Source of the DNA: Sipunculus nudus
Taxonomy: Eukaryota; Annelida; Sipuncula; Golfingiida; Sipunculidae
Reading direction: 5' to 3'
Length of the DNA stretch: 64,000 nt
NCBI GenBank assembly: GCA_026874595.1
Contig: CM049314.1
Location: 24,873,729-24,937,728, forward strand
Shown: positions 5,109 to 48,948 of the stretch, in pieces
How the letters are laid out: each line of letters starts with the position of its first letter
Position numbering within the stretch: the first letter of the stretch is position 1
Translations under genes and position numbers: made by a program
The notes under the pieces: generated by a model
Database searches by the model: none
Told to the model about the DNA's origin: nothing
The model's input: only the letters and a program-made list of their open reading frames with translations

Positions 5109-5250
5109 CTGAACATGGCGATGATGAGGTTGAGCACAAGGACGTTCGTAAACAGGATGTAGGTTGTCAACAGTACCAGAACAACGTAGCTACCGGCTCG
5201 GTCTTGACATCCGTTTCCCTGCGAGTAGTTTCCTTCTTGGCAGTTTGAAT
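5109..5250 (-). pseudogene. Pseudogene exon: pore loop to S6, last exon found
   Basis: 142 nt as in intact exon 45290-45431. Reads DRAGSYVVLVLLTTYILFTN and VLVLNLIIAMF; donor CAG|gtaggc is canonical here, whereas the intact copy has gc. No downstream exon follows in the window. Confidence 0.9.
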
Positions 5251-5946: not shown

Positions 5947-6118
5947 CTTCCACTTCGTCAAGGAAAAGCTCCCCATAGATGTGGTAGTATGGTCGTCGTA
6001 TGATGTTTATAAAGAGGAAACCATCAGGGGCAGAGTTTGGAAAGAGCAAAGCCTGGCTTACTCCGTATCCGCATACCAACACAAGCAGAATTAGTACATA
6101 GGCTCCCAGCTGCTTCAT
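5947..6118 (-). pseudogene. Pseudogene exon: S5 and pore, YGE filter
   Basis: 172 nt, acceptor cttgtcag, donor AAG|gtacag. Reads GAYVLILLVLVCGYGVSQAL and HIYGELFLDEVE. One codon shorter than the intact copy (GYGVSQ against GFGVVSQ). Open. Confidence 0.9.
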
Positions 6119-7369: not shown

Positions 7370-7630
7370 CATTTCGCCGAGCATCAGTAATTTTGGGCCC
7401 AGGTATCTGCTGACTGAGAAGATATTCAGAAAACGCAGGAAGTACAAGGCACAGCTGAATTCATCGATAATGCGTGCCACCACCAGACAGTTGGGGCAAC
7501 TCAAGCCTGGTAGAAATCTCAGGAGCAGGGCAGTGACGTAAAAGATTTCTGCTGATATATCCAGGACGTTCCAGATATAAGAAATGTAGTGCTTTAACCT
7601 ACTGGTAACACCGTGTCCTGCTGCCCACAG
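7370..7630 (-). pseudogene. Pseudogene exon: S3-S4 region
   Basis: Acceptor ctttgtag, donor ATG|gtaagc, 87 codons. Reads YIWNVLDISAEIFYVTALLL, then FLRFLNIFSVSRYLGPKLLM. Open, one codon shorter than the intact exon. The first eleven codons are poorly conserved. Confidence 0.88.
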
Positions 7631-8588: not shown

Positions 8589-8717
8589 CTGTCTTAGCTC
8601 TTCGAAAATCATGCTGGTTACCCATACAATAGGAACTCCGTCATACCAGCGGAAAACGTTGTCAAAGTAACAACAGAGACTGAAGCTGAACAAGACGAGG
8701 AACGCCAGAAAGGACAG
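8589..8717 (-). pseudogene. Pseudogene exon: S1-S2, donor GT lost
   Basis: 129 nt as in intact exon 42913-43041. Reads LSFLAFLVLFSFSLCC and VTSMIFEELRQ. The intron begins atatgt instead of gtatgt, so the donor GT is AT at 8588-8587. The E..Q pair of the Ca2+ site is still readable. Confidence 0.88.
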
Positions 8718-8977: not shown

Positions 8978-9067
8978 CGTGTTTAGGATAAATTTGACCA
9001 ATGGTGCCTGGTAGACATGGATGCACGAACAGTGACGCTGCAATTTCCTATCCCTAGAGGGTTTGAT
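8978..9067 (-). pseudogene. Pseudogene exon: VYQAPLVKFILNT, just before S1
   Basis: 90 nt, acceptor ctacag, donor ACG|gtgaga. Reads CIHVYQAPLVKFILNT; six codons shorter than the intact counterpart at its 5' side. Confidence 0.85.
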
Positions 9068-9405: not shown

Positions 9406-9513
9406 TTCTGTAGGTTCATTCCTGTCATCGACTTCATCACCAGGATCTTGGTCCTTTTGCTCCCGTTTCAGAATTGAACCAGCCGCAAAAGGAATAACTA
9501 CTACAAGCATTAT
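9406..9513 (-). pseudogene. Pseudogene exon: pre-S1 helix and acidic linker
   Basis: 108 nt as in intact exon 42067-42174; acceptor gttgtag, donor GAA|gttcgt (weak). Reads IMLVVVIPFAAGSILKREQ followed by an acidic stretch. Confidence 0.85.
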
Positions 9514-9834: not shown

Positions 9835-10060
9835 CCTGAACAGGCTTGCTTCCTCTGAGATATCTCCCCGCCAGATTTCGTTGAGGAGGCCTTGTCAAAC
9901 CGGATGGGCAACAAAACTCATGTTGTTGTTCTCAAAAGCAAGGTCAAGGGCGGTCTTACCTCTCAATACCCCATTTTTTCTCACAACCAACTTTCGGCAT
10001 CGAACTTCGCCTTGCCCATAAAGGAAATTCAGGAAGTTGAACGCGAAGTCGGAGAAGAAC
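9835..10060 (-). pseudogene. Pseudogene exon: FFSDFAFNFLNFLY segment with in-frame TGA
   Basis: 226 nt, identical in length to intact exon 41370-41595. Reads FFSDFAFNFLNFLYGQGE and KTALDLAFENNNMSFVAHPV, then TGA at 9897-9895 where the intact copy has TGT (Cys), then QGLLNEIWRGDIS in the same frame. Confidence 0.9.
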
Positions 10061-10558: not shown

Positions 10559-10659
10559 TTCTCACTCTCTTGAAGGTGGCGTTGCCTTTCAGAATCATCG
10601 GTGCAAGCTTGTATTCTCTGAAGTAGTCTCTGAGCGATGAGTGCTAGAAGCAATCCTTC
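10559..10659 (-). pseudogene. Pseudogene exon: EGLLLALIAQRLLQR segment
   Basis: 101 nt, the same length and phases as intact exon 40691-40791; acceptor atgtcag, donor GAA|gtatgt. Reads EGLLLALIAQRLLQRIQA; open. Confidence 0.88.
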
Positions 10660-12431: not shown

Positions 12432-12520
12432 CTTTCCCGTGTCCCAAAAGAGAAGTGCAAGGTCCTTCCTATTTGTGACAACACACCAGATGAACAGGTG
12501 ATGCTCTGGTACAACAAACC
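12432..12520 (-). pseudogene. Pseudogene exon: FIWCVVTNRKDLALLFW segment
   Basis: 89 nt, identical length and phases to intact exon 40099-40187; acceptor tttcag, donor AAG|gtattg. Reads HHLFIWCVVTNRKDLALLFW; open. Confidence 0.88.
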
Positions 12521-12765: not shown

Positions 12766-12883
12766 CTGTATCAGCATCTTGTAGGTAGATCGGCTGGTGC
12801 ATTAGTTCGTCCTGATATAGGTTATTGTTAAATGAGCGTGGCAGTCTCTTCAAAACTAGCCCAACATCTCGAAATGTCATGGC
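12766..12883 (-). pseudogene. Pseudogene exon: counterpart of intact exon 14
   Basis: Acceptor ttgacag, donor CAG|gtagga; 39 codons plus 1 nt, the same end phase as the intact 106-nt exon. Reads AMTFRDVGLVLKRL; poorly conserved beyond that, as expected for this linker. No counterpart of the 33-nt intact exon 13 was seen upstream. Confidence 0.72.
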
Positions 12884-13071: not shown

Positions 13072-13696
13072 TGCTTTATCAGTAAAAAACAAGGTCAGAT
13101 ACGGACGGGGACTCGACACCCTGGCACAGGAGCACAAATGTGCAGTACGATAACGACACCAGACGCCAGATGCCTCGTAGCTTCTGTGTCGCAGACTTTG
13201 TAGTAAAAACAGAGGGGACACTCGCCCCCCCCCCCCACATCTAAATCCGACCCTTATAGAGTCTACTGGTTGTGATTCATATAACTATTTTCACATCAAG
13301 ACGAAGGTATCCGTCATATTTACACAGTTTGCGATTATTTTACCTCCTTCATGTGTCCCGTGTAGCGTTCAATGGTATCACAAAATGGAAAACCGTGGAT
13401 ACGAGAACTCTACGAAATAAGAAAGCCCTTCTACTACATTTTGAAATTAGTTCTTGATATTAAGTCTTGCTAAGAAACGCAGCTGATATGAATACCTTCT
13501 GTTTAAAACAAACGTAAAAGACAAAAACATGAACATTCCAACTGTTTACTCTCGAAACTGCATGTTAGCTCTTAGAAATTCCAGACTTATCTGTGCAATA
13601 GCAAACGTCTTGGAACCAGCAAACTGAATCAAAGTTTTATATATATTATTTGTTATTTATAATCAGGTACATAATTAAAACTTGTCTTACACATAC

Positions 13697-13828
13697 TTCG
13701 TGGTAAAGAGATAGGATGCGCCCCCTGGTGAGGAACTGTCGCAGACAGACCACACCACTGTTTAGAAACCGTCTGACCAGATCTGCTTGGTTTTTCTGTA
13801 GAGCGTCCAGGAATATGGAATCGTATTC
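13697..13828 (-). pseudogene. Pseudogene exon: ADLVRRFLNSGVV segment
   Basis: Acceptor tttttag, donor GAA|gtatgt, 132 nt. Reads YDSIFLDALQKNQADLVRRF. A small in-frame insertion follows GVV compared with intact exon 38774-38899; open. Confidence 0.85.
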
Positions 13829-16869: not shown

Positions 16870-16964
16870 GTGTGTTTTGGAGAGTTTGATGGACTTTATT
16901 GCCATATCAGACAGATTCAATTTCTGGGTCAACTCAATCTTCTTTACTGTACTGTACTAAGACA
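16870..16964 (-). pseudogene. Pseudogene exon: counterpart of intact exon 11, with in-frame TAG
   Basis: Acceptor gttgcag, donor CAC|gtgagt. The second full codon is TAG (16959-16957) where the intact copy has AAG. It continues YSTVKKIELTQKL and SDMAIKSIKL. Three codons shorter than the 104-nt homologue. Confidence 0.87.
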
Positions 16965-17262: not shown

Positions 17263-17447
17263 GTTGCAATATTGCACTCAGGATAGCTTCTTCTAAATTG
17301 GTTTCTTTTTGTATGTCGTACACAGTCAGCAAATCCCTCCGTTCAACGCAGTCCTTCAGCCACTGTTTGTGTTCAGTCTGTTTTAGCGTGTCCTTTGCTT
17401 AACGTCTCTCGTACTCTGAATCAAGAGTCTCTGGGTCTTTATTACCA
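17263..17447 (-). pseudogene. Pseudogene exon: TEHKQWLKD segment with in-frame TAA
   Basis: Acceptor attttcag, donor AAC|gtaggt. In the ancestral frame it reads DPETLDSEYERR, then TAA (17401-17399), then TEHKQWLKDCVERRDLLTVY. The frame is the same on both sides of the stop, so this is a nonsense change and not a shift. Six nt longer than intact exon 36942-37120. Confidence 0.88.
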
Positions 17448-17970: not shown

Positions 17971-17997
17971 CTGACGGCCTGCAACCCGCCCGGAACC
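17971..17997 (-). pseudogene. Pseudogene exon: GSGR micro-exon with 14-bp deletion
   Basis: Only 27 nt against 41 nt in the intact copy. Reads GSGRVAG, then loses the 14 nt that encode the ADIVAE segment, shifting the frame. The next exon then opens TGG TAA, an immediate stop. The acceptor is the weak cattaag. Confidence 0.85.
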
Positions 17998-18809: not shown

Positions 18810-18922
18810 CTTGCAGACCACGACTGGAATATTTTGTTCCAAAGAACATTTGATGGTTTTCAAGGTGCCATGCCCGCCTTCCAGCGCCAGACAAACTACC
18901 GGCACCGGCTCACTGTCCGTAT
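18810..18922 (-). pseudogene. Pseudogene exon: PVPVVCLALEGGHGTL segment
   Basis: Acceptor tatctag, donor AAG|gtatgc. It joins directly to the previous exon in phase 1, so the 72-nt exon found in the intact copy (33882-33953) is absent without breaking the frame. Reads EPVPVVCLALEGGHGTLKTI. Confidence 0.88.
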
Positions 18923-20470: not shown

Positions 20471-20642
20471 CAGAGGCTTCCGACAGCTTCGCTTCCAAAC
20501 GAGCTCGGAACTCGATCTCGCCGCCATATTCTTTACATGTTCCGTCATCTACCAGTATGAAATGTGTGTGATTCGGGTCGAGAGGGCATTCTCCTTTCGA
20601 ACTTGTTCCCTCGACGTCGTAATGCACGGTTTCTGAACCATT
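20471..20642 (-). pseudogene. Pseudogene exon: LDPNHTHFILVDDGT segment
   Basis: 172 nt, the same length as the intact exon 33170-33341, acceptor ttcacag, donor CTG|gtaaaa. Carries the TRPM hallmark LDPNHTHFILVDDGT and FRARLEAKLSEAS; open. Confidence 0.9.
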
Positions 20643-21164: not shown

Positions 21165-21334
21165 CTGTGTGAAGCAATTCTGCAGGGTTTCCCGGTTGGT
21201 CACACAAACCCATGTAGCGATCCCTAGCACAACCAGGTCTTTCTGTATTCCATAAGCCTCTGAATATTCAAGAACCGCTTTACCCACGTGCTCCATGACT
21301 CCACTCTGTGTACCACCGGTGGTTATCCATGCGC
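21165..21334 (-). pseudogene. Pseudogene exon: SLOG AWITTGGT / ATWVCV segment
   Basis: Acceptor ttgccag and donor CAG|gttaag. Reads AWITTGGTQSGVMEHVGKA and VVLGIATWVCVTNRETL. One codon shorter than the intact exon 32477-32649; open. The donor lies next to a (TA)n tract. Confidence 0.88.
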
Positions 21335-21751: not shown

Positions 21752-21932
21752 CAGTACTTGCGGCGGCTTTCAGAAGTAATCGCCGGAAGCTGCGAATGAG
21801 GTCCTCTTCCATAATACATTTAGCAGTGCCCCCTGTAACCGATATTAGAAGCTTCGGCAGACTTAAACGCCACTTGTTTTTAAACCAATACAGCACGTGG
21901 ACCATATCTGTATCCTTATCAAGGCGGACCCA
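21752..21932 (-). pseudogene. Pseudogene exon: SLOG strand LPKLLISVTGG
   Basis: 181 nt, the same length and phase (0 to 1) as the intact exon 31846-32026. Reads WVRLDKDTDM and LPKLLISVTGGTAKC; open throughout. Confidence 0.88.
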
Positions 21933-22613: not shown

Positions 22614-22812
22614 CTCTGAAAGACGAGAACTGATCCCTCCGAACTTGATTTTACCGTGAACCTCCCGGTCATCCTCATATACATCAGCAGAGTGACCGTC
22701 TTGGCCTGTTGTCCGCCCTCCTCCCTCTGCTGATGTCGTCTTCTCAGAAGATTGTACTGCTTTTTCTTGATATTCAGACCTCTTGAACTCGCAAAGCTGC
22801 ACGGAGGCATCC
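22614..22812 (-). pseudogene. Pseudogene exon: N-terminal Cys-rich start of the MHR
   Basis: Acceptor ctcacag, donor GAG|gtaaat; 66 codons in the frame used by the intact gene. Reads VQLCEFKRSEYQEKA where the intact copy has CMCQCGYKRSEHLGKA, and ends GKIKFGG against GEINFGG. It has lost the Cys-x-Cys-Gly signature. It is 45 nt shorter than the 244-nt homologue, a multiple of three. Confidence 0.8.
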
Positions 22813-33700: not shown

Positions 33701-36556
33701 GACAGCCTGTAAGACGTACTTCGTCATAAACTCCAGACGTGATGCGGCACTTAGAAATACTTCATGCAGTTCCTGCCTCCGTCAAGAGGGTGTGTGTACA
33801 TTCCCGTTGGTGTGTTTGTGTGTGTGTGTTTGTGCTCAATATAACTCACGCAGTCATGAACACAATTTCATCCATTTTCAGGATATTCCAGAAAAGGAAC
33901 AATAAGAAATCGATTAGACCGTAGTGTGGATTCGGCACATGATCCCGATTCAGGTACGTCACCAAAGTATATTCACAAATGTACAGTCACTTATACACAG
34001 ATTAACCTCGGAACAGGGGCCGAGTAAGTAAATGACAGAGGCTTGCTGATTTCTAGTTGTCATATTAAACTTGACTGATAGGTTTATGTATTTTTATCAT
34101 ATTTTGTTATCTAGGTGACAAGGAGCCGGTGCCGGTAGTTTGTGTGGCACTGGAAGGAGGCCGGGGCACCTTGCACACCATCAAAAGTTCTTTGGAACAA
34201 AATATTCCAGTTGTGGTCTTTAAGGTATTTTAAATAATTAAATTAAGTATAACCTGTTACATAAATATCTGTGTGGTGAAGGGTTAAATACTATCTGAAT
34301 TTATAGTTAAAGTTGAATATCAAATGTGTAATATTTATGTTACAATGATACAGCAGGACTGTTTTCTTTCATTATATATTTAATATTCGTTAGCACATAG
34401 TATGTGTTAACTGCTAGATTAGAATACATTTCTGACTGAAAATAAAATGAACCAATCTAACTTTATAAAGTTTCAATATTCTATTATGGTACTCTTTTTG
34501 GCAATTTAGGCATATCTGCCACTGTTTTAAATTAAGAAGGAAAATTAATTCTTTTTTTCTCCATTTTATGCTCAAATTTAAATAGATTTAAGACCCCTGT
34601 AAAAATTGCTCTCTCAGGGCAGAACTTGTTTCCCTACATAAAGTTGTGTCCACTAAAAAATGTTTTATAAATTTGCAAGTAAGTGAAACAGGTTAACAGC
34701 AACGAAGATGAAAAGTATGGGCATAATGATCGTGCATGAGATTCAAGGTTGTTGCATAAAGAAATATACTAAAAAACTGAATATTCTAAACTGTTATTCA
34801 GTGTAATCAATATTCTTAAAATATAACTAATTTTATTAAAATGATCGTGGCAGGCTATCACGTCAGACGCCATATCACGTGGCCTCAAGACCCTGATGAA
34901 CATGGAGCATGATTCTGTCATGGAAGATTTTCAGTTTACAATAGCCGTTTGTCTGATGTCAGTTTCATCTATTTAAACGCGGAATTTTAATGGACACACC
35001 ATACCTTTAAGTTATTACATTCAGCTTGTCTGGGATTAGGGTTGGCATATACATTTTAATCAATCAAAAACTGACATAAGATGTATACTATGAATTACCA
35101 GAATCAACTCTGTAGGTATAACTTACCATCCAGGATACTCGCGCTAATTTTATAACATATTAATAATATTTATTGCCTTTTATTATTATCAATTACATTT
35201 TCTTTAGGGTTCCGGGCGGGTTGCAGACATTGTTGCCGAGGCCGTAAGGTAAAAACATTTAAAAACATTTAATTTCTTACATAAATTGTCCGTCATGTAT
35301 CTCATAACTGTTCATTACTGCTTCTGTCACAGGCATTTGTTTATAACACACACACACACACACATATATATATACAATGTGTGATAAGTATTCATGTTTT
35401 TCTATGGTATACTAGGTGCCAATAATTGTTAAGCCTTTCTTAGACACTTTCCATATTTTTGGAATCAGGAAGTCGACATTTATTTTTTTATCTCAGCTGA
35501 TTGAAAGTCATCTGAGCTATAGCGATTACTCTTTGTCCATCCTCCGTCTGTCTGGCCGTCCCGGGTTCCATTAACCAGGCACGAAACGTAACCGCTAGAC
35601 TTAGCAACTTTTAACTGAAAACCCATGGAGGTCTATAAAAATCTCCTTGGAAACCTGAATTTAGGCCGATGCAAGCTATACCCTCCAAAATATGGGGCTT
35701 GAAAATATCCTTCAGGTTAATTAAAAATTTGAAATGAAAGCTTCAGTATCTGATTAACTAGTCCATGGATTGCCATGAAACGTTTCCATTCATTGACCAA
35801 TCACTATTGATATTGTTCCACCACGTCTTGAAGACCGGTGTAGCCACCTGTAATGTTTTAGTTATTTTCATTTTTCTTATTTAAATAACGTGACATTTAA
35901 TTAAAATCAGTCGGTTATTATTCGATTCAGTCGGTTTCTCTTAATTTTAAATATAAGAACAACTCGTGTATATTTCCAGCAGGAAGGGGAATGTCAAACA
36001 TGCTATTTACATGTACCGTACTATTTTTCACTATTTGATACGAGATATCATGAATCTTAGTATACCTGACACCCGGCTTCAGCTTTCTCAGGTACTCATT
36101 ACACTTCGAGACACTGATTTAATCGCTTACCTGTCATCTTTAAATATATATTTTTACTATTATCTTAAAAGACGATGACTGGCTGTAACTGGAATCGTGT
36201 TACACCTTAGGATGGCTTGACCAAAGCATACCGAATAACAAAAGCAGCTGGCACATTCTATGTTTTTTACTATATATCTACTCCGTAAATCCAGCATATC
36301 AAATGCATTTTTTTTTTAATTTCGCCGAAAATTTTAACGATTATCTAGTCTCCCGAACAGTATATATATGATATATATATGTGTGTGTGTGTGTGCGAAT
36401 ATGTATGTATATATAGGGTCTGACTCGATCTTCTGCCATCATGCTATTTTGTTACTATATATGTACTCCTTATATAAATCCAGCATATAAAATACATTTT
36501 TTTTTATTTTCGCCGAAAATTTTAATGATTGTCTAGTCTCCTAAACAGTCTATGTA

Positions 36557-36618
<62 letters not shown>

Positions 36619-38118
36619 GGTCTGACTCGACCTTCCTATTATGGTCTGACCCCATCCTGTTGAAAAATAAAATCCTGGGTCCAAGCCTGTGAGAACATCA
36701 GTTCCAGCTTTGTAATGTTGCAGGGTGTGTTTCAAGTATTTTGTTCATCGGGGACATTTTTTTTTATTCTTTAACATTCTTTGCAGGTTTGTATGGAAAA
36801 CAAATGTAAGGCGAAAGTCCCTTTCCAGTACACCTACTACTATATGAACCATCACCTCCACAGAAAAATTATTAAAAATAAAAAAAAAAGAAACCATACC
36901 GGACGGGCAATTTGGATATTCCTTATTTTGTTTGTTTTCAGTGGTGATAGAGACCAAACGACTCTTGATTCTGAGTTGAAGAAACTTTTAGGAGAGGCCG
37001 ATCTGACTGAACACAAACAGTGGCTGAAGGAATGCCTGATGCGGAAGGATTTACTGACTGTGTACGACATACAGAAAGACATCAATTTAGACGAAGCTAT
37101 CCTGACAGCTATATTGAAAAGTAAGTGGGAATGAATTAAGGCACAATAATTAATGCAATATCCCGAATCATAGTCTCTCAGCACACAGTAAAAGAAATGT
37201 TCTGATTGTGACCATTAAAGGTTCTCCAGAATGGACTCGGTTGTAAAACCTTTAAGCTTCCTTCTAAAACATGAAATGGTTGTTGTGAAGTAGGGAGGAG
37301 ATGAGTCATTATGGAAATGTTGAGATTTAGTTTCTTTCAATCGTTGTGCACACCTAGTTCATTTATGTTGAGCCATTTTTTTCAGATAAAATGTTATATA
37401 TTTGAATTTTTGCAGTGTCCAAGTACAGCACCGTTAAGAAAATTCAGATGGCACAGGAATGGAATCGGACTGATATGGCAATAAAGTTCATCAAAATGTC
37501 CCCAGGAGTAAAAGAACACGTGAGTTATTTTTTTTTTTAGTTTCATGTATGTAAAGGGCTCCATAGTTTGGCCAAAGTTTTGCGGGATTCGGCTAAGTTA
37601 TGGCCAGACTTCGTGCTAAAAACTCCGTAACCTGCACTGTGATTGGCCGACTTATCATATTATACAATGTTTTACACATAAACACTCGCTAAATGAGTGA
37701 GCCTCTGGTAAATATAAACCCGAGGTAATATATTCTTAATATATCTCCAGCCAAGTTGACACATTGTTGGTAGCAAATTGATCAAGCAGATGTCCGCTGC
37801 TTCTGAACAGCACCCATTTTTTTGGTTCAGCATAAACCTTGCATTCATTTTTAATATCTCCTGGTATTGAAGCCAGATATCGGATTTCCTAAAAAATATA
37901 TATATAATAAATTTAACACATTGTGATACACGGCAGTTCACAAATGCTCCATGTAAAAAAAAAATGACTAAAAAATGCAAGTTTCAACAGAACTTGGAAT
38001 TTCTTTGTTAATACCCTGAAAATAGGAATATTAAAATAAAAATATAAAAAATAAAAATGATCGACCCCTAAACACACGCAAATAAAATGCCCGCATAATC
38101 GGACAGGGTACAAGGAGT

Positions 38119-38170
<52 letters not shown>

Positions 38171-38624
38171 CTTCCACTAAAGCGTACATAAGAGTTTTTA
38201 GACGCCACTTGAACGTAAGTAAAGAATAGTTGCTGCAGTCACTAATAGACACCGGAATTCTGAGCAAGGTGAGCTGAGTGTACTTTATTCACAATGTACG
38301 ATTCAGAATGCTGGTGCATATATGCAGTACTCCACTTTATTAACATAGAATCTTCATTAAACATCACTTGGACCCCTTCCATGTAAACTGTTTATTTATC
38401 TACCTGCCTGACATGCATATCACTATTTTAAAGTCAGTAAAGGAATATATATCCCCCACATGTTGGCAAATGGGTAGTGGGTGAAGAGAGTACTATATAT
38501 ATAACTAGATTGAGAGACTTTTGTTACCCTTCTGCCTTTCTGCTAGACCATATTTTTAACATTGAACTTGGTTGTATTATCTAAATAGTATAACGCTTTG
38601 TACGCATTAAATAAGGTTAACACG

Positions 38625-38693
<69 letters not shown>

Positions 38694-41600
38694 TTTTGAA
38701 CAAGCTTCAGACAGCCTGTGGGAGTACATGTGTCTCAAATAACCGCGATTATTTCACGTTTGCTCTTTTACAGAGGAATGATTACGTTTCAATTTTCCTG
38801 AAAGCCCTGCAGGATAACCAAGTTGATCTGGTCAAACGGTTTCTGCATACCGGAGTGGTCAGCAGGGGGCATCTCCTGTCTCTATATCGTGACGAATTCG
38901 TAATGCAAATGCTTATTATATACTTAATTATTAATTGTATATAATATTTATGAGACTCGAACGTCAATCGTTATAATAAATTAGAATATGACGTCAGGTT
39001 TTTGTTCCTGAGTAGTTGTCAATGCCACGGACAAGTTGAGAATATCTGATAGCTCAGTTGCGAGACTATCCCTCTCAATGGTTTGTTGTTACGTAAACAA
39101 AAGAGAATTCGATGAACTTTATTTAAATCCTGAACACCAATAGAAAAAAAGATGTAAAATGTATCAGTATTATTTTATTAATTCAAGTGTTCACAATCCT
39201 TCATATTTCGATGCGGTAAAACGATACACTATGCACCGAAAGAGTAGAATGATCGCAAATGTGTAAATGACATACGTACACAGTAAATATGACGGAGATA
39301 AAGTGATAACTACGTCATGGTTTGAAAATTGCTATTTAAATCACAAACAGTTTCTTCTTTCTTGTCTTAGAATCTGGAAGATTCGCTCTCTGGGAAAAAT
39401 AAGGTAAGAGGGCTTTAGCGTCTGATGTTGTTTTCTTGTGCTTCTCCATGAGGTTTACTGACACTTCTGACGTCTTCTACTGTGCCAGGATGATGAGCCC
39501 CTTTCCTTTTCGAAGACCCCGTTTCCGTCCTTTTTCTATTCATAATAAAGCGCAACGCTTCCTCACTCTAAATAATATATATATACCAATATTGACACAA
39601 ATCGTGACCTCACATCACATGTCTTGATTTAATATAGGGGACAAGATATGACACAAAAAACTAACATTTAAAGAACATTTATGAATATCGTTGAATGATG
39701 GATTTAACATCGTTTGCCGTACGACAGGACATGACACTTAAAGTGGTTGGTTCCCTATTGAAGAAACTCGACAGAGATGTTCGTCATAACAGAAACAAGG
39801 TCCAGCCGACAAAGCTAAGGGATATAGATAAAGGTAGGATGGTATTTCATCAAACTCTACAATACAAGGTTAATTTGTCACACTTAAATACTGACAAAGA
39901 ATGGTTGAAAAAAAATGTTCAAATGTTGAATTTCATTGTTTTGTGTAAATGTAATTTTGTGGTCCTTCAACTTCTATAAAGAATGTTCATTCTTAAAAAT
40001 GCAAGCTGATGCGCACTTCTTTAAAAAGAAGTGAACAGGCGTTCCCGTCACACGGTTAGAACCGAATCTTTATACTAATTTTTTCATTCTTATTTCAGGC
40101 TTTGATGTATCACAGCGACTCGTGTTCTTCTGGTGTGTCGTCACAGGGAAAAAGGGCCTAGCACTTCTCTTTTGGGACACGGCAAAGGTATCGGTGCTCA
40201 ACATTAAATGCAAGCCATTCCATTTCGTGGTGTTCATCAGTTTTTTTTTTTTTTGTTTTTGGTGCTTTTAATGCTCATTTTACTCTTATGTGCCAGTCAC
40301 CGAAAAGAACGAATAGTAAGGCAACTTAAAATAAAAGCTTAGATTAAAATGACTAATTTTTCCCTTTAAGTAACTATATTTTATTAGAGTTATGGTGCCA
40401 ACTTTATTAAATATACAGTTGGTCGCTACCAGTCGAAAGCACAGTTGACCCTGTCACTTGAATTCAGTCAAATGTGTCATGACAGAATAGATTTGCTAAA
40501 GATAAATTGTTTCACACAAATAATTCAATATGTTTACGTTAGTCTCATTCAAAGTAATTGCAATGGTTCTTTGTTCATAAACTCACATGGGTAACGGAAT
40601 AAAGTTACATATCTGGAAAAGCTAAGAATCAATGTATACTTTAAAAAAACAGCAACTGGATTGAACTGGAGATTTTTTAAAACATGTCAGGAAGGACTGG
40701 TTCTGGCTCTTATCGCACAGAGATTACTTCAGAGATTACGAGCTATCGAAGATGATTCTGAGGAGCAGAAACAGCTACAGGAAAATGAGAAGTATGGGCT
40801 AATATGTATTTACGGTAGAAACCATTTTACTTTAATATCACTTGGTGTATAACTGATGACAAGTCATATGTTTAAAGCCCCTTTGTGTATATATCTCAAA
40901 CTTTATTGAAACTAAAGCCCTTTTTGTTTATATAGTCTTCACATTAGAATGTGTCAACGAGATGACCAATATAATAGGACCAAATGTCTGTTAAGGCCAC
41001 CCTTGAGTGAACCAAAAGCATTGGTTGTAACTGTGTTTAACTGAACTGTCTAATAAAACCACTTTTGAATTAAGACACCTCTTGGCCGTTTCCATGGGTA
41101 GTCTTATAACACAGGTTTCCCTGTACTTAACAGTCAACAGAAAACAGTCAACAGTTAACAGAACTTTACCAATATATCATGCAGAGTACATGTATTAAAT
41201 ATCGTTGCATAGAAAATAACAATCCAAGGCATCTCAGCGAGTAGGCACGAATTATTTTAGGGATAATATTTAGGTGAACATAAATATTCCTTATAAGGAA
41301 GTATAGTAGAGATGCCACAAGATGAAAAAAGCTATTCATTAATCTCTCTATTATTTACATCATTTTCAGGTTTTTCGCCGACTTCGCGGTGGCCTTCCTA
41401 AATTTCCTTTATAAACAAGACCAAGATCGATGCCGGAATTTGGTTGTGAGAGAAAGCGGAATATTAGAACGGAAGACCGCCCTTGACTTTGCTTATGAAT
41501 GTAACAACCGAAGCTTTGTAGCCCATCCGGTTTGTCAAGGCGTCCTCAACGACATGTGGCGGGGAGAAATTTCCCGGGAAACAAGTTTGTTCAGGGTAGA

Positions 41601-44600
41601 TGTTCCTTTTTATAAAACGTAAATTTTGTGTAGGTACGTACTTGCTTCATAGTCATTTGCATTTTGAATAATTTAAACAGCCCAGTTCTGATATTACACT
41701 TTTGGTATGCCCGTTTGATTTCGGGGATACCCTATAATATGCATATGGTTTCTTTGACCTTTAAAAGAGTTGTAGATAATATATAAATGGTACTTTTAAT
41801 GGAATTGGTAAATTTACCACTGGTCTTTTACAAGTTAAAATGCGGACCTTTATTTCCAATTCTTCGGTTTTCTTTTTTAGTTTTATACTTATCCTCATCT
41901 TGAGTTTATTTGTGTGAATTTCTAACTTTACTACCGTGATTCTTGTTGGATTTGAACCTGTGCCGCTGATTATGCCCATTACTTTACCACACGTCTATGA
42001 ACTAGGATTTTAAAGACTGCGCTCCAAAGAATGAGCTCTGTAATAAAGCTGTTTATTCGGTTGTAGATAATGCTAGCAGTAGTTGTTCCTTTTGTTGCTG
42101 GTTTGATTTTGAAACGCGAACAAAAAGCCCAAGTTCCTGATGATGATGGCGATGACATGGATGAGCCGACACGAGTACGTAAAACAAAGGTTTCAACAAA
42201 TCTATCACAGATATCAAGTACTTTATATACATTTAACCGCTCTATTCACTGTTTTTTTTAACATAAATGCTGCTCCCTTTGAAACAATTTAATATGAACG
42301 GATATTTATTAACTAACAGAGGGTGGGCAGAAATTGTTCATTCTGGATTTGAACCCGTTATGTAATATACCGCATACATAATTCTATGTGCTTTCAATAT
42401 AAATATTATACTTCATAAGGTCATAAGGTCCACTGAGATATTAGTGTTTAAAATAGTGTTTAAATGACATGCTGATGAATTTGTAATAATACCTTTTGAC
42501 AACAACGGCAAAAAAATAATCAGTAAAAAAATAAAAAATAAATTGTTTCGCATTCTGCAGTTTGTTAAATTTGCAACAAACTATTGGCCTGGTCTACCCA
42601 TAAAACATTTTCAGAGAAAGAATTTGCAAGGATCAAGGCTGACAGTCCCACCATCAGGACGATGTTACTACTCATGCCTTCACGTCTACCAGGCACCATT
42701 AGTCAAGCTTATCCTGAACACGGTGAGAACTAATTTTTTATATATGATAAACAAGTGTTTTATTTTAGTTATACCAAACTAAAATATCGAGATCTGTGTT
42801 TAAGAGTCTCCATTTTGTCATTGAAATTACTTGAGTAATCAGCCAGTGTTTTGAATTATTATTGGTGGTTATGAATTCTTTAATGAACTGCCGTTATTTA
42901 TTAATGTTTTAGGTGTTCTTCCTGGCGTTTCTCGTCTTGTTCAGCTTCAGTCTCTGCTGTTTCTTCGACCACATGTTCCACTGGTATGACGGGGTTCTCA
43001 TTGTCTGGGTAACCAGCATGTTTTTCGAAGAGCTACGACAGGTATGTGGTTTTAATAGTGCCTATGATGCATAATATAAACGGAGACGAAAACATTCTTA
43101 TCACAGGTGCAATATTTTATTAATTTTAATGAACCGTGCAAAGTACCCTCTGTTTTAAAAAAAGTGACAAACTCGTAAATAGTGCTTGCCGATAACCAGT
43201 TGATATTCTGACGTCTGCCTTTGGTTTCTCTCTGGGTGTCCCAGTAAATGATAATTAAAAATATATGGGATCTTCCTTCATGATGACGTGTTCTAGTAAT
43301 CTAGAAGATTTTAAGAGCTTCCCACAAAAGCCATGCCTCGACGCTGGGAAGACTTGCATTCCTTAGAATGCATACTTCTAGTCTTTGAAATGCGTTTAGT
43401 TTCTTCTTGTCTACCTGTGTCATTCATTCCCCAGTCTATGAACAATATAATACAGAAAAGACCTATGCTTCTAAATATTCCAGCTCTGGGTTTGTCTTGC
43501 ACCTAGTTAATTTTCATAGTTCATTTGACTAAACTTACGCTTTCCTTGCTGAAGTTCTTCTTCTTTTTGTCCCTTGATTAACCGCCCTCTTAAACCCCCG
43601 CTCCGATTTCAGGAAAGTCCAAATTTGTGGGACATTTATGTCAGCCTCTATTTCCAAGATGAAAATCTGCTGGTTTAAGAACTAAAAAATTGCAACTTTT
43701 TAGAAGTATTTTATAAAAGGAAATATTTATATGCTAGCTTTGTTTTAATCTTAGCTTTGTACTGTAAACCTGAGAGAGAAAATAGTAAAAATAGATGCAT
43801 AAATTGTGGTAAATGTTTTAGCTGTTGTAACATTTTTCTAAACTGAAAATTGGACATACATTTGTTTACTTTGTAGCTGGTGACAATTGAAGGAGAGCGT
43901 GTGATTATTAAGTTAAAGCACTACATATGTGATTTCTGGAACATCCTTGATATATCAGCCGTCATCTTATACGCCACTGCCCTAGTCCTGAGATTTCTAC
44001 CGAGCTCGAGTTGCCCCCACTGTCTGTTGGCGGCACGCATTATCGGCGCGTTCGGCGGTGTGTGCTACTTCCTACGTTTTCTGGATATCTTCTCAGTCAA
44101 TGAACTCCTGGGGCCGAAAGTACTGATGCTCGGTCAAATGGTGAGCAGACTTTACCTTTTAATCTTAAATTTATCAATTTATCTATCAATACCAATGCTG
44201 ATGTCCAGTTCTAGATGTATGAAATTTAATTCCATATACATTTAATGATAACATTCTTTGATTTAACATACAGCTTATTAAGACTGTATACCTTACAAAT
44301 GATAATGATACTTAATACTTTTAATTCTGGCAACCTGTAAATTAAAAATACTTTTGGCCATTTCCAATGATGGTCTCATTACACAGGTTTGGTATTAAAG
44401 GGTGATATTTTATTTTTTTGCAGTGTTTCTTATTTCTGTACAATGACTTCCTCAAAATACAACCTGATGAAATATACCCGTTATTTTATATTCCCTTGTC
44501 AGATGAAGGAGCTGGGAGGCTATGTACTGATTCTTCTAGTGTTGGTATGCGGGTTTGGGGTAGTGAGCCAGGCTTTACTCTTCCCAAACTCTCCCCCAGA

Positions 44601-47600
44601 TGGATCCCTCCTGAAGAACATCCTAAGACGACCGTACTTCCACATATATGGGGAACTCTTTTTTGATGAAGTGGAATGTACGCGATAACATTTCACGTTT
44701 ATCTCCATATAATATACATCCCGTTCATATGGGTTGGTATGGTAATAACATCAGACAGGTGGTAGATTTTGTAAAAGGCATAAATACCAGAAAGCATTCC
44801 TATGGTCAGTTTAACGTGAGCGTAAGTGACACATATCCTTTGCTCAACGTTCAGGTTTAACAGCATGTTTATGAAGGTTATATTACTTCTTTGCATGTGC
44901 ATACGTAATCGTTTGTGACCGATTATACAATAGGAATTCATACACAAGCAATTTAATCGACTATGAAAGAGAACGGTCAGTCATTGATATAAGCGATTAA
45001 TCGGTGCAACATTATTTTATTATCCTTGGAGGATGTTGTAAAGGTATTACTGCCTTTTTGGAAAGCATGCCATGCGGTATTATGCCATGCTTCTCATACT
45101 GAATAATGCGCTTCAATATGAGAAAGCGAAAGCTACGCTACTTGGCTGCCAGTCTGGAATTGTCGATATAAGAAAAGAAACTGCCAACAATGTTGAAGGT
45201 CAGATATATGTTTCAATATAAATCACTTTGTTACATGAACTTGGAACGCTCTGGTAAATTGACTATAATTAAATTATTTTCTTTGCCAGATACAAACTGC
45301 CAAGCAGGAAACTTCTCGCAGGGAGAGAGATGTCCAGACCGAGCCGGAAGTTACGTGGTTCTGGGATTGTTGGCAGTCTACATCCTGTTCACGAACGTCC
45401 TTGTGCTCAACCTCATCATCGCCATGTTCAGGCACGAAGGGAATGAAGTTATACAAGATATTTTTGCATACAGTTTGCGAGCTTTTCGTGTCATTTTACA
45501 GAAAAACTGAGATAAAAATGTTGTTGAAAATAATTGATTATAAATGTTAATAACATACACTTATATGACAGCCCAATGGGGCAATTCTAATTATTAAAAT
45601 CTTCAACTGTTCTTGGCTCTGTAATTTAGGGCCCCGAATGGAAAAATCAGCAAATAAAATATTACTTAATAATTAATACCACAATATTTGTGTATTGATA
45701 TTCTATAAGATCAACAGACAACTTTACAATCTCCTCTTTACCGCAGTTTTACAGTTACAAAGATCCATGAAAATAACAACAAATACTGGCGGATGCAGAG
45801 ATACCACGTGATCAAGGAATTTAACAATCGACCGGTGCTGCCCCCTCCATTCATACTATTCCCTCATATTGCTAGCCTGGTATCGACCATTTTTGGATAT
45901 GGTCCGCAGAAATATGGTAAATTTTGTAAGTAATATTTTTTACAGGAAACTTTTTATATATATTATTCTAGTACAATCAAATTTGTGGCCACCTCATTTT
46001 AGGTATTTTTCTTTGTCATTTTCGTTTAGACGATACCTTATTTTATCTCTTTGAGATGTATCATGGTTTACTCGTTGGTTTGGTCGTATGCAGTTTTACA
46101 TAAAAAGATCTGAACAGGCTTTCTTGTATTTTTTTCGGAGGATTACAATATAACACATGAGGAAATACCTATTTGGAGGTTAGCTAAATCACCGTCATGT
46201 TTATTTCATTGTGATATACAGTCGTATCTTTTCTCTGTTAAATTGACCAATGATAGGTGTTTTTGAAATGTGACAGATTTTTTTTGTGCTTTGTGTCTAG
46301 TTTTATTAGGCGCTGGCGGAGGTTATGGCCTCTGGTCACTTTCCTGTTTGATGAATAAAATGATTATAATACCCGTTATAAATATGGTGAAAAAAATATT
46401 TTTTCGCAACATGGTTAAGGAGAATCAGAAGAGAAAATTCGTTTTTTTATGACTCTGTGAATGGTTGGATGAAGGGTAGACATAGGTAATCTTAAAATGT
46501 CTCAGATCAGTCATAAAAGTGCCGGGCGCCAGCTTTTCCTTGATGTGACACAAATGTAACAATAATTATGCCAGGGATTGGTATTTCCGGCATTATCTTT
46601 TAACACGTGCAACCACATATATTGAGCCGTATGACAGTCATGGATAATCTTACTTCAAGATCCTAGGGCGCAACAAATCACACGGCAAGTCAGAAGTTAT
46701 TACTGGTGGTCATGAGATGTTCATCCGATCATGAAAGCCCACTCGTAATATATGACAGATAATCACAGAAGTGACTGGATATTTATTGGGGATACATAAG
46801 TAAATGCAGGCAAAGATTGGGACTTCAATTAAGAGGTTAGACTAACTGTGTGCGATATTATATGATGGCTGGCAACAGAGTAGCAAAACTGATTGAAAAT
46901 ATATTCAAACTATCTTAAAATAGGGGTTGCCATGAGTGTAGCCAAGAAGAAAAATAAGAAAAAAAAAAATAGTTGATTTAATACTTCATAATGAGTCTCA
47001 GCTATTACATCGAGAGATAAAAGCCAGAAAAACTGCTCAGAAGTGAATATCATGGGCGCAATCTATAGCTTACATCCGCACCAAACAAAATCAATAAACT
47101 TGTAAAATGTGTTGCCGATAGGTGGAACTTTCCTTGAATACGAGATAACACATATTATTCATGTCTTCATGTAAAATTTTAATGATTATTACAAGGTTCC
47201 AAAAATATCCCATATTGGGGTCTTGTGATAAATGAGTAATATTGGGAAGGGGAGGGTCATAGGTGTACATACAGTCATTACAGTTTATGCCGGTCTCAAC
47301 ACCAGGGCTGGCACAGCGCCAAGATTCAGACCAACGGTAGCGGAGTATCGTGAATTTAAAAATTGGATGCACAATGCGATAGCATCCACTTATTGGTCAC
47401 AATGTTGTGCTCTGTAAGACCCTGGTGGTGTAACCCGGAGAATTTTGCTACAAAAAGCAGTGGTTAAAACGAAGGAGATACGGCGCGACTGTAGTGTATA
47501 ACCGTTGCATGAGCCTTGCACCGGTAGCATAGACGTGGACAATTTTAATTATTTTCTTCTTCTGTTGGACTAGGGCTAAGATGAAACATCGGGACAAAGT

Positions 47601-48948
47601 TTCCCCATAAAAGTGCCTACTGTCATTTTGCAGATGGTTACTTGTCGTCAGAGGAGGAAAAAGCCCTCCTGTCATGGGAAACACTGCAAGCCTACGACTT
47701 CATAAATCAATGTGAAAAGATTGGACAACGTAAAAGGTACACGCAAACTGACACACACCCACACACCTATATACAAACGAAATCGTTAGTTCTAATGCAG
47801 TTTACTCATGTTATTCACCACCAACAAATAAAACAAAAATAATCTTCGATTTTCTTTTAGACTAAGGTGACTATATAGACTGCTGTCTCTATAACTATAG
47901 CTTAGCTGTTTACTCTTCACAGGTTACCAAAAGCGCAATGAAAATTGTCACCCAGAACTCCCCAATATGGCTAGATTATCTCCGATCCATCATATTGTTC
48001 ATTTATTTTCATTTTTAAGATTCTCGTTGACTTATACATGGTCCTTTCCCAGGGTATACTACAAGTATGTCTTTTCAGCTGTAAATTAAGTAGTGGTAAA
48101 ACTATATCTGATCAAGATATCGCTCGTAATGTAAATAAAAATTTTCCTTAATATAAGATAAATATAAATTTAAATCTGTTAACCTCACTCGTCCTCATGT
48201 GCCTTACCTTAATTTTATTCATAAGCACCTCCTCTCTTCCGCAATAGTACGAACCATTTATGTTTATGTGGTAAAAGGCATGTTATACGCCGTTTAAGGA
48301 AATTAAGTTGGCCAGATGAGGAGAGCAGAGTAAAAACACGCAAAGAAACAGCAAAAAATGCGCGCACACATGTGTGTCCTTGAAAGACTTTCAAGATTAA
48401 AATTTTAAAGATACATATCTCACTAATCTTCATGCAATAGATTGTTGCAATGATTTTAATAAAATTGATTTGTCACCTCTTTAATAAAATTATGGCAATT
48501 TCAAAACAATTATAACACTGACTTACTCTAAATTTTATATGTATTGGCTGTTAAACATTTGAAAGGGATATACTCAGACTTCTTTATCATGAATACAAAA
48601 CACGTATTGGCGCTGACGCTGTCTATGACTTTACTTGCAACCCGCTCTTACCTGAGGGCTCATAAAATCGAGGCCACAACAGGATTATTAAGAAGATTCA
48701 AGGAGTTTCTTCATTTACAATTATGTCTCAACCTATAACCTGACTGTTGGTAATACCAAGTCGTAACAACGGACGTACATGGGGGCTCTGCAACAGTCAT
48801 ACAAAAAATCTATTATAAAAATATTTTGCTTTTATATTTTAGAATGGCTGAATTTGTGGAAAATGAATTCGGGGCTCCAGAGGGAGAGACCGAGACCTAC
48901 AGCCGTATTTCCCAGAGGATCTCTAATGTTTTGAAGATTTCAAGGTGA
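27605..48948 (+). CDS. TRPM2-like: TRPM2-like cation channel, intact copy, 26 exons, no NUDT9-H or kinase domain
   Basis: Predicted non-selective Ca2+-permeable channel subunit, a tetramer in the plasma or an internal membrane (family knowledge). Exons: 27605-27643 (tentative), 28329-28384, 30762-31005, 31846-32026, 32477-32649, 33170-33341, 33882-33953, 34115-34224, 35208-35248, 36942-37120, 37416-37519, 38774-38899, 39371-39403, 39728-39833, 40099-40187, 40691-40791, 41370-41595, 42067-42174, 42615-42722, 42913-43041, 43877-44140, 44503-44677, 45290-45431, 45747-45916, 47634-47736, 48843-48948. All phases join, giving about 1,118 codons. Order: Cys-rich start, SLOG fold (LLISVTG, LDPNHTHFLLVDDGT, GSGR), MHR3/4, S1-S6, TRP helix with VLPPPFIL, ALLSWE helix, stop. 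Human TRPM2 is longer by its coiled coil and NUDT9-H domain, neither seen here. Every splice site is GT-AG except one GC donor at 45432. The start codon was not found; it lies upstream of 27605 or in an unrecognised exon. Confidence 0.92.
27953..27987. repeat. Inverted repeat, 15-bp arms around CAAGATGGC
   Basis: atggcggccatcttg (27953-27967), loop of 5, then caagatggctgccat; one mismatch. Both arms contain the ATGGCGGC/AAGATGGC core of a YY1-type site. Lies in the first intron of the intact gene; it may be the tip of a MITE. Confidence 0.7.
28329..28384 (+). CDS. Exon 2, start of the TRPM N-terminal region
   Basis: Acceptor tccttcag, donor CGG|gtgagc. Reads FKIRRCRRFVAAEGAAKIG and ends in phase 2, as exon 3 requires. 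It matches the IKKKEC..FV spacing that precedes the CxCGY motif in TRPM2. Confidence 0.62.
29838..30166. mobile_element. MITE-like element with GTCAGGGGCG ends
   Basis: Left end gtcaggggcggttccagg, right end cgctacgcccctgac; the termini are inverted repeats. The body carries a poly-G run and ggtccaacc, then a gaccaatgaaaaaccttaaa phrase. Same family as 58379-58557. Lies in an intron of the intact gene. Confidence 0.6.
30511..30574. repeat. (CT)n microsatellite
   Basis: Nearly pure CT over about 64 nt in the intron before exon 3. Short ORFs over it (Arg/Glu or Ser/Leu repeats) are artefacts. Confidence 0.95.
30690..30758. repeat. (TA)n microsatellite abutting exon 3 acceptor
   Basis: About 69 nt of TA run straight into the acceptor cag of exon 3, so the polypyrimidine tract is replaced by TA. 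Length variation here could affect splicing. Confidence 0.95.
30762..31005 (+). CDS. Exon 3, CxCGY motif and linker
   Basis: Acceptor tatacag directly after a (TA)n tract, donor AAG|gtaggt. Reads CMCQCGYKRSEHLGKAL, then a Gly/Ser/Glu-rich linker, then DAYGEINFGG. This matches the TRPM2 N-terminal pattern of CQCGY..EQHL followed by DAFGDI.F.G. Confidence 0.9.
31846..32026 (+). CDS. Exon 4, SLOG first strand
   Basis: Reads YIRLDKDTDM and RRPKLLISVTGSAVEC, then FRRGLLKAAASTG. LLISVTG is the hallmark of the TRPM SLOG (LSDAT) fold. Acceptor ttatcag, donor CTG|gtaaat. Confidence 0.93.
32253..32315 (+). other. Intronic block conserved with the pseudogene intron
   Basis: Reads gcgctgatacagacttgccg, then ggctgatataatttatattt; pairs with 21514-21575 on the opposite strand. 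Confidence 0.7.
32477..32649 (+). CDS. Exon 5, SLOG AWITSGGT and VATWGCV
   Basis: Reads AWITSGGTWSGVMKHVGKAA and VVLGVATWGCVTNRETL. The Arg in NRETL aligns by eye with an ADP-ribose-pocket Arg of vertebrate TRPM2. Acceptor ttgccag, donor AGG|gtaagc. Confidence 0.93.
33170..33341 (+). CDS. Exon 6, LDPNHTHFLLVDDGT
   Basis: Near-invariant TRPM motif LDPNHTHFLLVDDGT, followed by GGEIIFRTRLEAKLSE with the second candidate pocket Arg (RTRLE). Acceptor ttggcag, donor CTG|gtatag. Confidence 0.94.
33882..33953 (+). CDS. Exon 7, 72-nt exon present only in the intact copy
   Basis: Acceptor attttcag, donor CAG|gtacgt. Reads YSRKGTIRNRLDRSVDSAHD. Phase 1 on both sides, so it can be skipped without a frameshift. 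Basic N-terminal half with RKGT and RSVDS phosphosite-like motifs. No counterpart in the pseudogene. Confidence 0.75.
34115..34224 (+). CDS. Exon 8, VPVVCVALEGGRGTL
   Basis: Reads DKEPVPVVCVALEGGRGTL and NIPVVVFK, matching the IPIVCVVLEGGPGTL strand-loop of TRPM2. Acceptor tatctag, donor AAG|gtattt. Confidence 0.93.
35208..35248 (+). CDS. Exon 9, 41-nt GSGRVADI micro-exon
   Basis: Encodes GSGRVADIVAEAV, the nucleotide-loop motif that closes the SLOG fold. Acceptor ctttag, donor AAG|gtaaaa. Phase 0 to 2. Confidence 0.93.
35505..35850 (-). repeat. Copy of the dispersed tail repeat (cggacgg / cagctgact type)
   Basis: On the minus strand it reads ctcagatgactttcaatcag and then tatagct, followed by a gacagacggaggatgg-type phrase. 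This is the arrangement at 61550-61650 and 1080-1170. It sits in an intron of the intact gene. Confidence 0.5.
36262..36620. repeat. 188-bp tandem duplication ending in expanding TA tracts
   Basis: The phrase cgccgaaaattttaa occurs at 36323 and 36511 (offset 188), with matching flanks (ctactcc.../gtactcc... and ctagtctcc). Copy 1 ends in a mixed TA/TG tract, copy 2 in a pure (TA)n at about 36560-36615. Both are followed by ggggtctgactcga or a near variant. Confidence 0.85.
36942..37120 (+). CDS. Exon 10, MHR3 start
   Basis: Reads DSELKKLLGEADLTEHKQWL and KDLLTVYDIQKDINLDEAIL, equal in pattern to TRPM2 RRQLLTVFREG...DVDVAIL. Acceptor tttcag, donor AAA|gtaagt. Confidence 0.92.
37416..37519 (+). 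CDS. Exon 11, AQEWNRTDMA helix
   Basis: Reads KIQMAQEWNRTDMAIKFI, matching LAVAWNRVDIARSEIF of TRPM2. Acceptor tttgcag, donor CAC|gtgagt. Confidence 0.92.
38123..38167. repeat. (TA)n microsatellite
   Basis: About 45 nt of TA in the intron between exons 11 and 12. Confidence 0.95.
38628..38690. repeat. (TA)n microsatellite
   Basis: About 62 nt of TA, 85 nt upstream of exon 12. Confidence 0.95.
38774..38899 (+). CDS. Exon 12, VDLVKRFLHTGV
   Basis: Reads IFLKALQDNQVDLVKRFLHT, the ankyrin-like MHR helix pair known as PEFVKLFLENGV in TRPM2. Acceptor tttacag, donor TTC|gtaatg. Confidence 0.92.
39371..39403 (+). CDS. Exon 13, 33-nt micro-exon
   Basis: Acceptor gtcttag, donor AAG|gtaaga; reads NLEDSLSGKNK in phase 0. 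Fits a variable linker of MHR3/4. Supported by splice sites and phase only. Confidence 0.55.
39728..39833 (+). CDS. Exon 14, linker with VVGSLLKKL helix
   Basis: Reads DMTLKVVGSLLKKLDRDV, similar to HHVAQVLRELLG of TRPM2, then a basic stretch. Acceptor cgacag, donor AAG|gtagga, phase 0 to 1. Confidence 0.8.
40099..40187 (+). CDS. Exon 15, FFWCVVTGKKGLALLFW
   Basis: Reads RLVFFWCVVTGKKGLALLFW, matching the LLIWAIVQNRRELAGIIW block of TRPM2. Acceptor tttcag, donor AAG|gtatcg. Confidence 0.93.
40691..40791 (+). CDS. Exon 16, ALIAQRLLQRL helix
   Basis: Reads EGLVLALIAQRLLQRLRAIE, then an acidic stretch ending in ENEK, like IAAALACSKILKEL in TRPM2. Acceptor atgtcag, donor GAA|gtatgg. Confidence 0.92.
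41370..41595 (+). CDS. Exon 17, end of MHR4
   Basis: Reads DQDRCRNLVVRE, then KTALDFAYECNNRSFVAHPV and WRGEIS, the pattern TTCLQLALEAKDMKFVSH...WWGQLS of TRPM2. Acceptor ttttcag, donor AGG|gtagat. Confidence 0.94.
42067..42174 (+). CDS. Exon 18, pre-S1 hydrophobic helix and acidic linker
   Basis: Reads IMLAVVVPFVAGLILKREQ, then an Asp-rich stretch (DDDGDDMDEP). Corresponds to CMLAFPLLLTGLISFREK of TRPM2. Acceptor gttgtag, donor CGA|gtacgt. Confidence 0.92.
42615..42722 (+). CDS. Exon 19, HVYQAPLVKLILNT before S1
   Basis: Reads CLHVYQAPLVKLILNT; donor ACG|gtgaga. An upstream acceptor (start 42561) would add 18 in-frame codons. The shorter form is chosen because the pseudogene homologue ends similarly. 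Confidence 0.85.
42913..43041 (+). CDS. Exon 20, S1 and S2 with EELRQ
   Basis: S1 reads VFFLAFLVLFSFSLCC and S2 reads VLIVWVTSMFFEELRQ. The second Glu and the Gln of EELRQ align with the Ca2+-coordinating E and Q of TRPM2/4/5. Acceptor gttttag, donor CAG|gtatgt. Confidence 0.94.
43877..44140 (+). CDS. Exon 21, S3-S4 with FWNILD
   Basis: S3 begins DFWNILDISAVILYATALVL; its N and D match the other Ca2+-site residues. S3/S4 continue RIIGAFGGVCYFLRFLDIFS and LLGPKVLMLGQM. S4 lacks a regular basic ladder, as in other TRPM channels. Confidence 0.94.
44503..44677 (+). CDS. Exon 22, S5 and selectivity filter YGE
   Basis: S5 reads GGYVLILLVLVCGFGVVSQA; the pore helix and filter read RPYFHIYGELFFDEVE. 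The filter is YGE, as in TRPM1/3/6/7-type pores, and not the FGQ of human TRPM2. Acceptor cttgtcag, donor AAT|gtacgc. Confidence 0.94.
45290..45431 (+). CDS. Exon 23, outer pore and S6, GC splice donor
   Basis: Two Cys (NCQAG..., GERCPDRAG) flank the outer pore loop; S6 reads YILFTNVLVLNLIIAMF. The intron begins gcacga. Splicing at this GC is the only way seen to reach exon 24 in frame; read-through gives a stop after 27 extra codons. Confidence 0.88.
45747..45916 (+). CDS. Exon 24, TRP helix and VLPPPFIL
   Basis: Reads FTVTKIHENNNKYWRMQRYH, then FNNRPVLPPPFILFPHI, the TRPM TRP helix and following signature. Acceptor accgcag, donor ATG|gtaaat. Confidence 0.94.
47634..47736 (+). CDS. Exon 25, EEEKALLSWE helix
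   Basis: Reads LSSEEEKALLSWETLQAYDF, matching KNEEAALLSWEIYLKENYL of TRPM2. Acceptor tttgcag, donor AAG|gtacac. Confidence 0.9.
48843..48948 (+). CDS. Exon 26, short C-terminus and stop
   Basis: Reads MAEFVENEFG, then TETYSRISQRISNVLKIS, and ends TGA at 48946-48948. A CAAG|gtgatt donor overlaps the stop, so a spliced extension is possible, but no NUDT9-H (Nudix) or kinase sequence was found downstream to 62076. Confidence 0.78.

Follow-up and report, generated by a model that had tools for sequence, protein, structure and literature searches.

An old inverted duplication of a TRPM-type channel gene in Sipunculus nudus, with one copy open in frame and the other broken

The window, a stretch of 64,000 nucleotides from Sipunculus nudus, contains two TRPM copies in opposite orientation. 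Comparison of the window with itself revealed an inverted repeat with arms at 22.7-4.9 kb (minus strand) and 31.0-45.7 kb (plus strand), separated by about 8 kb, in which the 5' ends of the two copies face each other, and the pair is thus head-to-head; the spacer between the copies carries a tandem array at 25804-27289 (31-bp unit, 47.8 copies, 79% matches). When the open frames of the arms were compared, the coding blocks of both chained in one order, and 19 homologous exons (e0-e18) follow in the same order on both strands, at 22812..5109 in the minus copy and 30762..45431 in the plus copy (Table 1). Splice borders were placed by eye at each coding block and the exon models assembled by script, so that the borders reflect homology and consensus rather than transcripts. 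Exon lengths are equal in eight of the 19 (e1, e3, e10, e11, e12, e13, e15, e18), differ by a multiple of three in ten, and differ by 14 nt in e5 (27 nt in the minus and 41 nt in the plus copy); as read by eye, the junction phases match between the copies except at the end of e5. The homology of the arms is far above chance (blastn E to 1e-114, protein E to 1e-37) and extends to the introns, which are 65.6% identical over 5952 columns (JC distance 0.46), with 79.5% identity over 2523 exon columns in the DNA alignment. Since introns as well as exons are homologous, the TRPM pair is confirmed as an inverted duplication of DNA, introns included, with one copy broken. This agrees with a preliminary description made from the letters alone, which had reported a head-to-head pair with at least 19 common exons, often of equal length and with the same intron positions and phases, had read it as an inverted segmental duplication followed by loss of one of the copies, and had proposed the DNA-level alignment. 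A search of the window for further TRPM pieces gave 42 HSPs with E no greater than 1, and none of them marked such a piece outside the modelled exons. Gene conversion between the arms was considered and rejected, as the 276 four-fold sites were no more heterogeneous from exon to exon than expected by permutation (638 of 2000 permutations reached or exceeded the observed value).

Table 1. Modelled exons of the two TRPM copies and the end of the aligned block, in positions of the window
Feature	Positions	Strand	Remarks
plus e-2	27605..27643	+	tentative; N-terminal, phase 0; AG/GT borders; frame joining e-1 gives ...SVYEEFKIRRCRRFV
plus e-1	28329..28384	+	tentative; AG/GT borders; phase 2 end fits e0
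plus e0	30762..31005	+	Cys-rich N-terminal region; homologous to minus e0; CQCGY...DAYGEINFGG
plus e1	31846..32026	+	SLOG domain
plus e2	32477..32649	+	SLOG
plus e3	33170..33341	+	SLOG
plus e4	34115..34224	+	SLOG
plus e5	35208..35248	+	GSGRVADIVAEAV
plus e6	36942..37120	+	
plus e7	37416..37519	+	
plus e8	38774..38899	+	lacks 18 nt that minus e8 has
plus e9	39728..39833	+	
plus e10	40099..40187	+	TRPM2-like Pfam domain
plus e11	40691..40791	+	
plus e12	41370..41595	+	
plus e13	42067..42174	+	before S1
plus e14	42615..42722	+	
plus e15	42913..43041	+	channel domain
plus e16	43877..44140	+	channel domain
plus e17	44503..44677	+	pore region
plus e18	45290..45431	+	last transmembrane segment; GC donor (CAG/GCACGA)
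plus e19	45747..45916	+	TRP helix; minus counterpart not found in window
plus e20	47634..47736	+	minus counterpart not found in window
plus e21	48843..48948	+	ends with TGA stop; minus counterpart not found in window
minus e0	22614..22812	-	
minus e1	21752..21932	-	
minus e2	21165..21334	-	
minus e3	20471..20642	-	
minus e4	18810..18922	-	
minus e5	17971..17997	-	14 nt shorter than plus, frameshift lesion
minus e6	17263..17447	-	in-frame TAA 17401-17399
minus e7	16870..16964	-	in-frame TAG 16959-16957
minus e8	13691..13828	-	
minus e9	12766..12883	-	
minus e10	12432..12520	-	
minus e11	10559..10659	-	
minus e12	9835..10060	-	in-frame TGA 9897-9895
minus e13	9406..9513	-	
minus e14	8978..9067	-	
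minus e15	8589..8717	-	splice lesion: AT donor instead of GT
minus e16	7370..7630	-	
minus e17	5947..6118	-	
minus e18	5109..5250	-	last homologous exon, GT donor
minus intron sequence homologous to plus e18-e19 intron	4891..5108	-	aligned block ends here, about 65 nt before expected e19 start

The plus copy was modelled with 24 exons, which add e-2 and e-1 (both tentative), e19, e20 and e21 to the shared set and form an open frame of 1083 residues over 3252 nt with its sole stop at the end. A search of reading frames and patterns upstream found no exon with the start codon; the frame runs into a stop upstream of e-2, and an in-frame ATG inside e0, at 30772, is one possible start. The e18 donor is GC in the plus and GT in the minus copy. 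When 42 donors are ranked upwards by the score of their flanks, the GC donor comes 34th with 5.05, and the highest of the same 42 scores, 6.20, belongs to the broken e15 donor of the minus copy; good flanks are thus no proof of use, and the score, from which the two key bases are excluded, is of little help on this point. A small share of introns do use GC donors, and on that background a GC-AG intron after plus e18 is plausible. In e8, 18 nt (six residues) are absent in frame from the plus copy where the minus copy reads VCLRQFLT and TRPM3 VSMHRFLT, a likeness judged by eye. Furthermore, neither model accounts for about 25 residues that TRPM3 has between its e8-like and e9-like stretches, and no exon for them was found by eye or from reading frames in 38899-39728 of the plus or 13691-12883 of the minus copy; both models may lack an exon here, or both genes may have lost it. 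The earlier statement that one copy keeps a full frame therefore stands for the 3252 nt, but its wording as intact is weakened by the GC donor and the undetected first exon.

The minus copy carries five disabling lesions, namely three stops (e6, e7, e12), a 14-nt deletion (e5) and a lost donor (e15), the remaining 18 of its 19 donors being GT; at least five had been claimed. With its introns kept, these lesions and an open paralogue, it has the features of a duplicated (unprocessed) pseudogene. Searches of the window by blastn and tblastn gave no credible minus-copy counterpart for e-2, e-1, e19, e20 or e21 (lowest E 0.047 and 0.051 for e21, 0.19 for e19, 0.33 for e20, 0.92 for e-1 and 1.8 for e-2), with e18 and e11 as controls finding their minus counterparts at 2e-21 and 3e-12. 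The minus copy probably once had working ends, because it stayed in frame over most of its history, and these ends may have been deleted, displaced beyond the left edge of the window or diverged past detection. The place expected for its C-terminal exons is occupied by plus-strand frames at 2375-4288, which we take to resemble pieces of a non-LTR retrotransposon reverse transcriptase; a Pfam search of these frames returned no match. Repeats are present in the first 4.9 kb of the window, including an internal repeat (569-1012 / 1256-1699) and a family of which several stretches in 488-1801 match 35485-35905, in the plus e5-e6 intron, at 60-66%. Another similarity, perhaps a dispersed repeat, links 20795-21017 in a minus-copy intron to 47301-47513 between plus e19 and e20 (225 columns, 68%).

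Membership of the TRPM family is evident from the plus model, which matched TRPM chains in the PDB over most of its length (TRPM2 chains to 8.2e-143). The TRPM SLOG amino-terminal domain was recognised by Pfam LSDAT_euk (221.5 bits, 1.8e-65, cut-off 25.7), a TRPM2-like Pfam domain at 2.4e-22 and the ion-transport domain by Ion_trans (58 bits, 1.1e-15, cut-off 25), while in alignments with solved TRPMs e19 falls on the TRP helix stretch. With SLOG, a channel domain with pore and a TRP helix, the predicted product of the plus copy is most likely a TRPM-type cation channel subunit. An amino-terminal Cys-rich region, given as a feature of TRPM channels in the available text of PMC13143021, is represented by RRC...CMCQCGY in plus e-1/e0 (e-1 being tentative), and minus e0 retains a single one of the three cysteines that e0 has in this stretch.

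The label TRPM2-like, used in the preliminary description, appears to be only partly right. The SLOG part of the plus model is closest to TRPM2 (218.6 bits, vs 133.9 for TRPM3), but the channel part is closest to TRPM3 (197.2 bits, vs 177.4 for the best listed TRPM2, that of Nematostella). In a channel-region alignment of six sequences the copies share 72% identity, against 30-36% with every reference, and in the unrooted tree the two form a pair on a long branch, separate from both vertebrate TRPM2s, with a split support of 0.391 and no resolved grouping among the remainder, including Nematostella TRPM2. For NUDT9-H, three frames from 48900-62001, 13 kb downstream of the plus copy, gave no PDB match, a domain beyond 62 kb being possible; two frames covering known exons were run as controls, of which one found TRPM (to 8.8e-22) and the other, with few exons, found nothing. 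Three frames from 48900-58501 likewise gave no NUDT9-H match in Pfam, a weak test whose own control gave a single match at 8.7e-5. Within these limits the absence of NUDT9-H, a feature of TRPM-beta-like and TRPM-gamma channels that other TRPMs also exhibit, is observed here, and the pair may belong to one of these two clades. In the TRP helix, plus e19 has N where the TRPM2 chain has D (ENNNKYW vs DNTDTIW), a position that in TRPM2 contributes to the calcium site, whose E, Q and N, in its other part, seem to be retained.

Over 882 codons the copies differ by a dS of 0.47 and a dN of 0.208, giving a dN/dS of 0.44 (bootstrap 0.37-0.55); resolved by exon, as had been suggested at the outset, the lowest ratios are those of e17 in the pore region (0.11) and e15 (0.19), with no value obtained for e14. 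As a ratio of 0.44 is high for a channel, constraint on both copies appears to have been weak to moderate and never strong. The synonymous distance agrees with the JC distance of the introns, and because of this dS and the low intron identity the duplication is old. A minus copy that had been neutral ever since should carry about 21.8 stops, 23.6 frameshifts and 15.7 lost splice sites, 61.2 lesions in total, vs three, one and one observed (P of 1.4e-9 for at most one frameshift and 6.8e-7 for at most three stops). The five lesions correspond to 8.2% (2.7-19.1%) of the minus branch, and stops and frameshifts alone to 8.8% (2.4-22.5%), on a clock that halves the pairwise intron distance, assumes equal rates on both arms, intron rates in exons and a transition weighting for stops, and uses a rough count of splice sites. 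The lesion count set against intron divergence thus implies that the loss of the minus copy falls in the last 8% or so (3-19%) of the time since duplication, a date that compares the two arms only and that a third, closer paralogue would change.

Length differences between the copies are multiples of three in ten of the 11 differing exons vs 22 of 128 intron gaps (P 2.1e-7). In the DNA alignment three of ten exon gaps are out of frame (2, 7 and 17 nt); we attribute these to where gaps were set near exon borders, as the lengths of the exons in question differ by 3, 12 and 18 nt. The 13 gap events of the codon alignment were dropped as evidence of frame, since an alignment based on translation has its gaps in frame by construction. 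Among 192 columns invariant in three TRPM2 references, which come from 12 of the 19 shared exons, 122 are kept by both copies, nine by the plus copy only, seven by the minus copy only and 54 by neither (p = 0.80 for nine vs seven). The minus copy therefore exhibits no clearly greater loss of conserved residues than the plus copy, as expected if both were constrained until lately. In the six-sequence tree the minus branch is somewhat longer (0.276 vs 0.203). The few lesions relative to expectation, the in-frame lengths and the retained conserved residues together suggest that the minus copy worked until lately.

The homology, exon structure, lesions, open frame and domains, all observed directly, are probably best explained by an old inverted duplication of which both copies stayed long in frame, the minus copy being lost late and the plus copy remaining a channel gene. 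An ancestral TRPM channel gene without NUDT9-H would have been copied, introns included, into inverted head-to-head orientation, and both copies would have stayed in frame for most of the time since, at the fairly high pairwise dN/dS reported above. The minus copy would then have lost its function late and gathered its five disabling lesions, its terminal exons having gone from the window by divergence or displacement beyond it, and the plus copy would go on making a TRPM-type cation channel subunit. What the plus copy does, what the minus copy once did and when it ceased are in this account predictions from sequence, and the dN/dS, the GC donor, the start exon that was not found, the e8 gap and the longer minus branch count against it. 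A scenario in which the plus copy too is dead or on its way out, as a very young pseudogene through its e18 GC donor and missing first exon, is unlikely; the GT at the same donor in the minus copy, the 18-nt in-frame difference in e8 and the dN/dS would fit this, but with zero internal stops in 3252 nt the plus copy can have been neutral for no longer than about 0.026 substitutions per site, the phases chain through all 24 modelled exons, and GC donors, as noted, do serve some introns.

A minus copy dead on arrival, from a duplication that took only e0-e18 and left it to decay neutrally from birth without terminal exons, would account for the five plus exons that lack a credible counterpart in the window and for a homologous block that ends shortly before e19; it is nevertheless very improbable, given a twelfth or so of the lesions expected on a whole neutral branch and conserved residues kept about as well as in the plus copy. 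There is slightly less reason still to believe that the minus copy remains useful, as a shortened subunit or as a regulatory or antisense RNA, as its clean frame and mostly clean splice sites, with 18 of 19 exons of in-frame length and 18 of 19 donors GT, are all that favours it; the e5 frameshift and the e6 and e7 stops precede the channel, late loss accounts equally for the preserved parts, and at 79.5% exon identity few long stretches would pair perfectly. An artefact of assembly, through errors or allelic haplotypes placed side by side, is the least probable of these alternatives. The lesions were judged from the assembled sequence rather than from reads, but introns that differ by 34% are too far apart for alleles, and assembly errors do not usually take the form of stops by substitution (three here), a 14-nt deletion away from a homopolymer or a substituted donor. 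As an extension of late loss after an old duplication, the pair might represent a TRPM lineage that is deep and evolves fast, lacks NUDT9-H and combines a cytosolic part like that of TRPM2 with a pore region like that of TRPM3. In it, two inverted copies would have worked for more than four-fifths of their history, one would have just been lost and the other would have its first doubtful splice site; this idea, by which the subfamily may be leaving the genome, is speculative and rather doubtful.

The pair is a well-preserved case of ordinary gene-family turnover, in a family whose expansion in invertebrates has been described before, and what is added here is that the loss is placed late relative to an old duplication. 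Because homologous introns supply a neutral clock, this single locus allows the time of duplication to be distinguished from the time at which a gene died. The pair also offers a local example of the gene gains and losses reported for invertebrate TRPMs, while knowledge of TRPM function is unchanged by it. Targeted searches, limited to one literature library, returned no paper on TRPM pseudogenes. Elsewhere in the window, a single open frame of 570 codons at 62080-63789 (minus) with BTB, BACK and Kelch domains is a KLHL-type gene, and local direct repeats of 0.2-0.4 kb with 70-77% identity lie at 54198-55044 and 60898-61406.

Among known systems, vertebrate TRPM2 and Nematostella TRPM2 (TRPM-beta) resemble the plus copy in the top whole-protein score among solved chains (480.6 bits) and in the best SLOG match, but differ in that NUDT9-H was not found within 13 kb downstream here and in the low identity of the channel region. 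TRPM3/TRPM1 (TRPM-alpha) exhibit the reverse pattern, with TRPM3 the best match in the channel region but a much lower SLOG score. The TRPM2 chanzyme of Salpingoeca rosetta matches in the TRPM channel core (361.7 bits), but its NUDT9-H, described as enzymatic in the available part of PMC13143021, has no counterpart found here. In scallop, two TRPM2 copies both keep the ADPRase domain, according to the portion of PMC8539334 consulted, unlike the pair described here. A cephalopod survey, in the section at hand, placed many unannotated sequences in the beta clade (PMC13402157). Species-specific duplications and expansions of TRPM genes in invertebrates are reported in the accessible sections of Morini et al. 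2026 (PMC13143021), in line with the earlier remark that the family is known to expand in some invertebrates. The clades of that study, whose members carry database names such as TRPM2-like and TRPM3-like in the text available, likewise combine a TRPM architecture without NUDT9-H with species-specific duplications, a likeness to the present pair in described features rather than in clade sequences.
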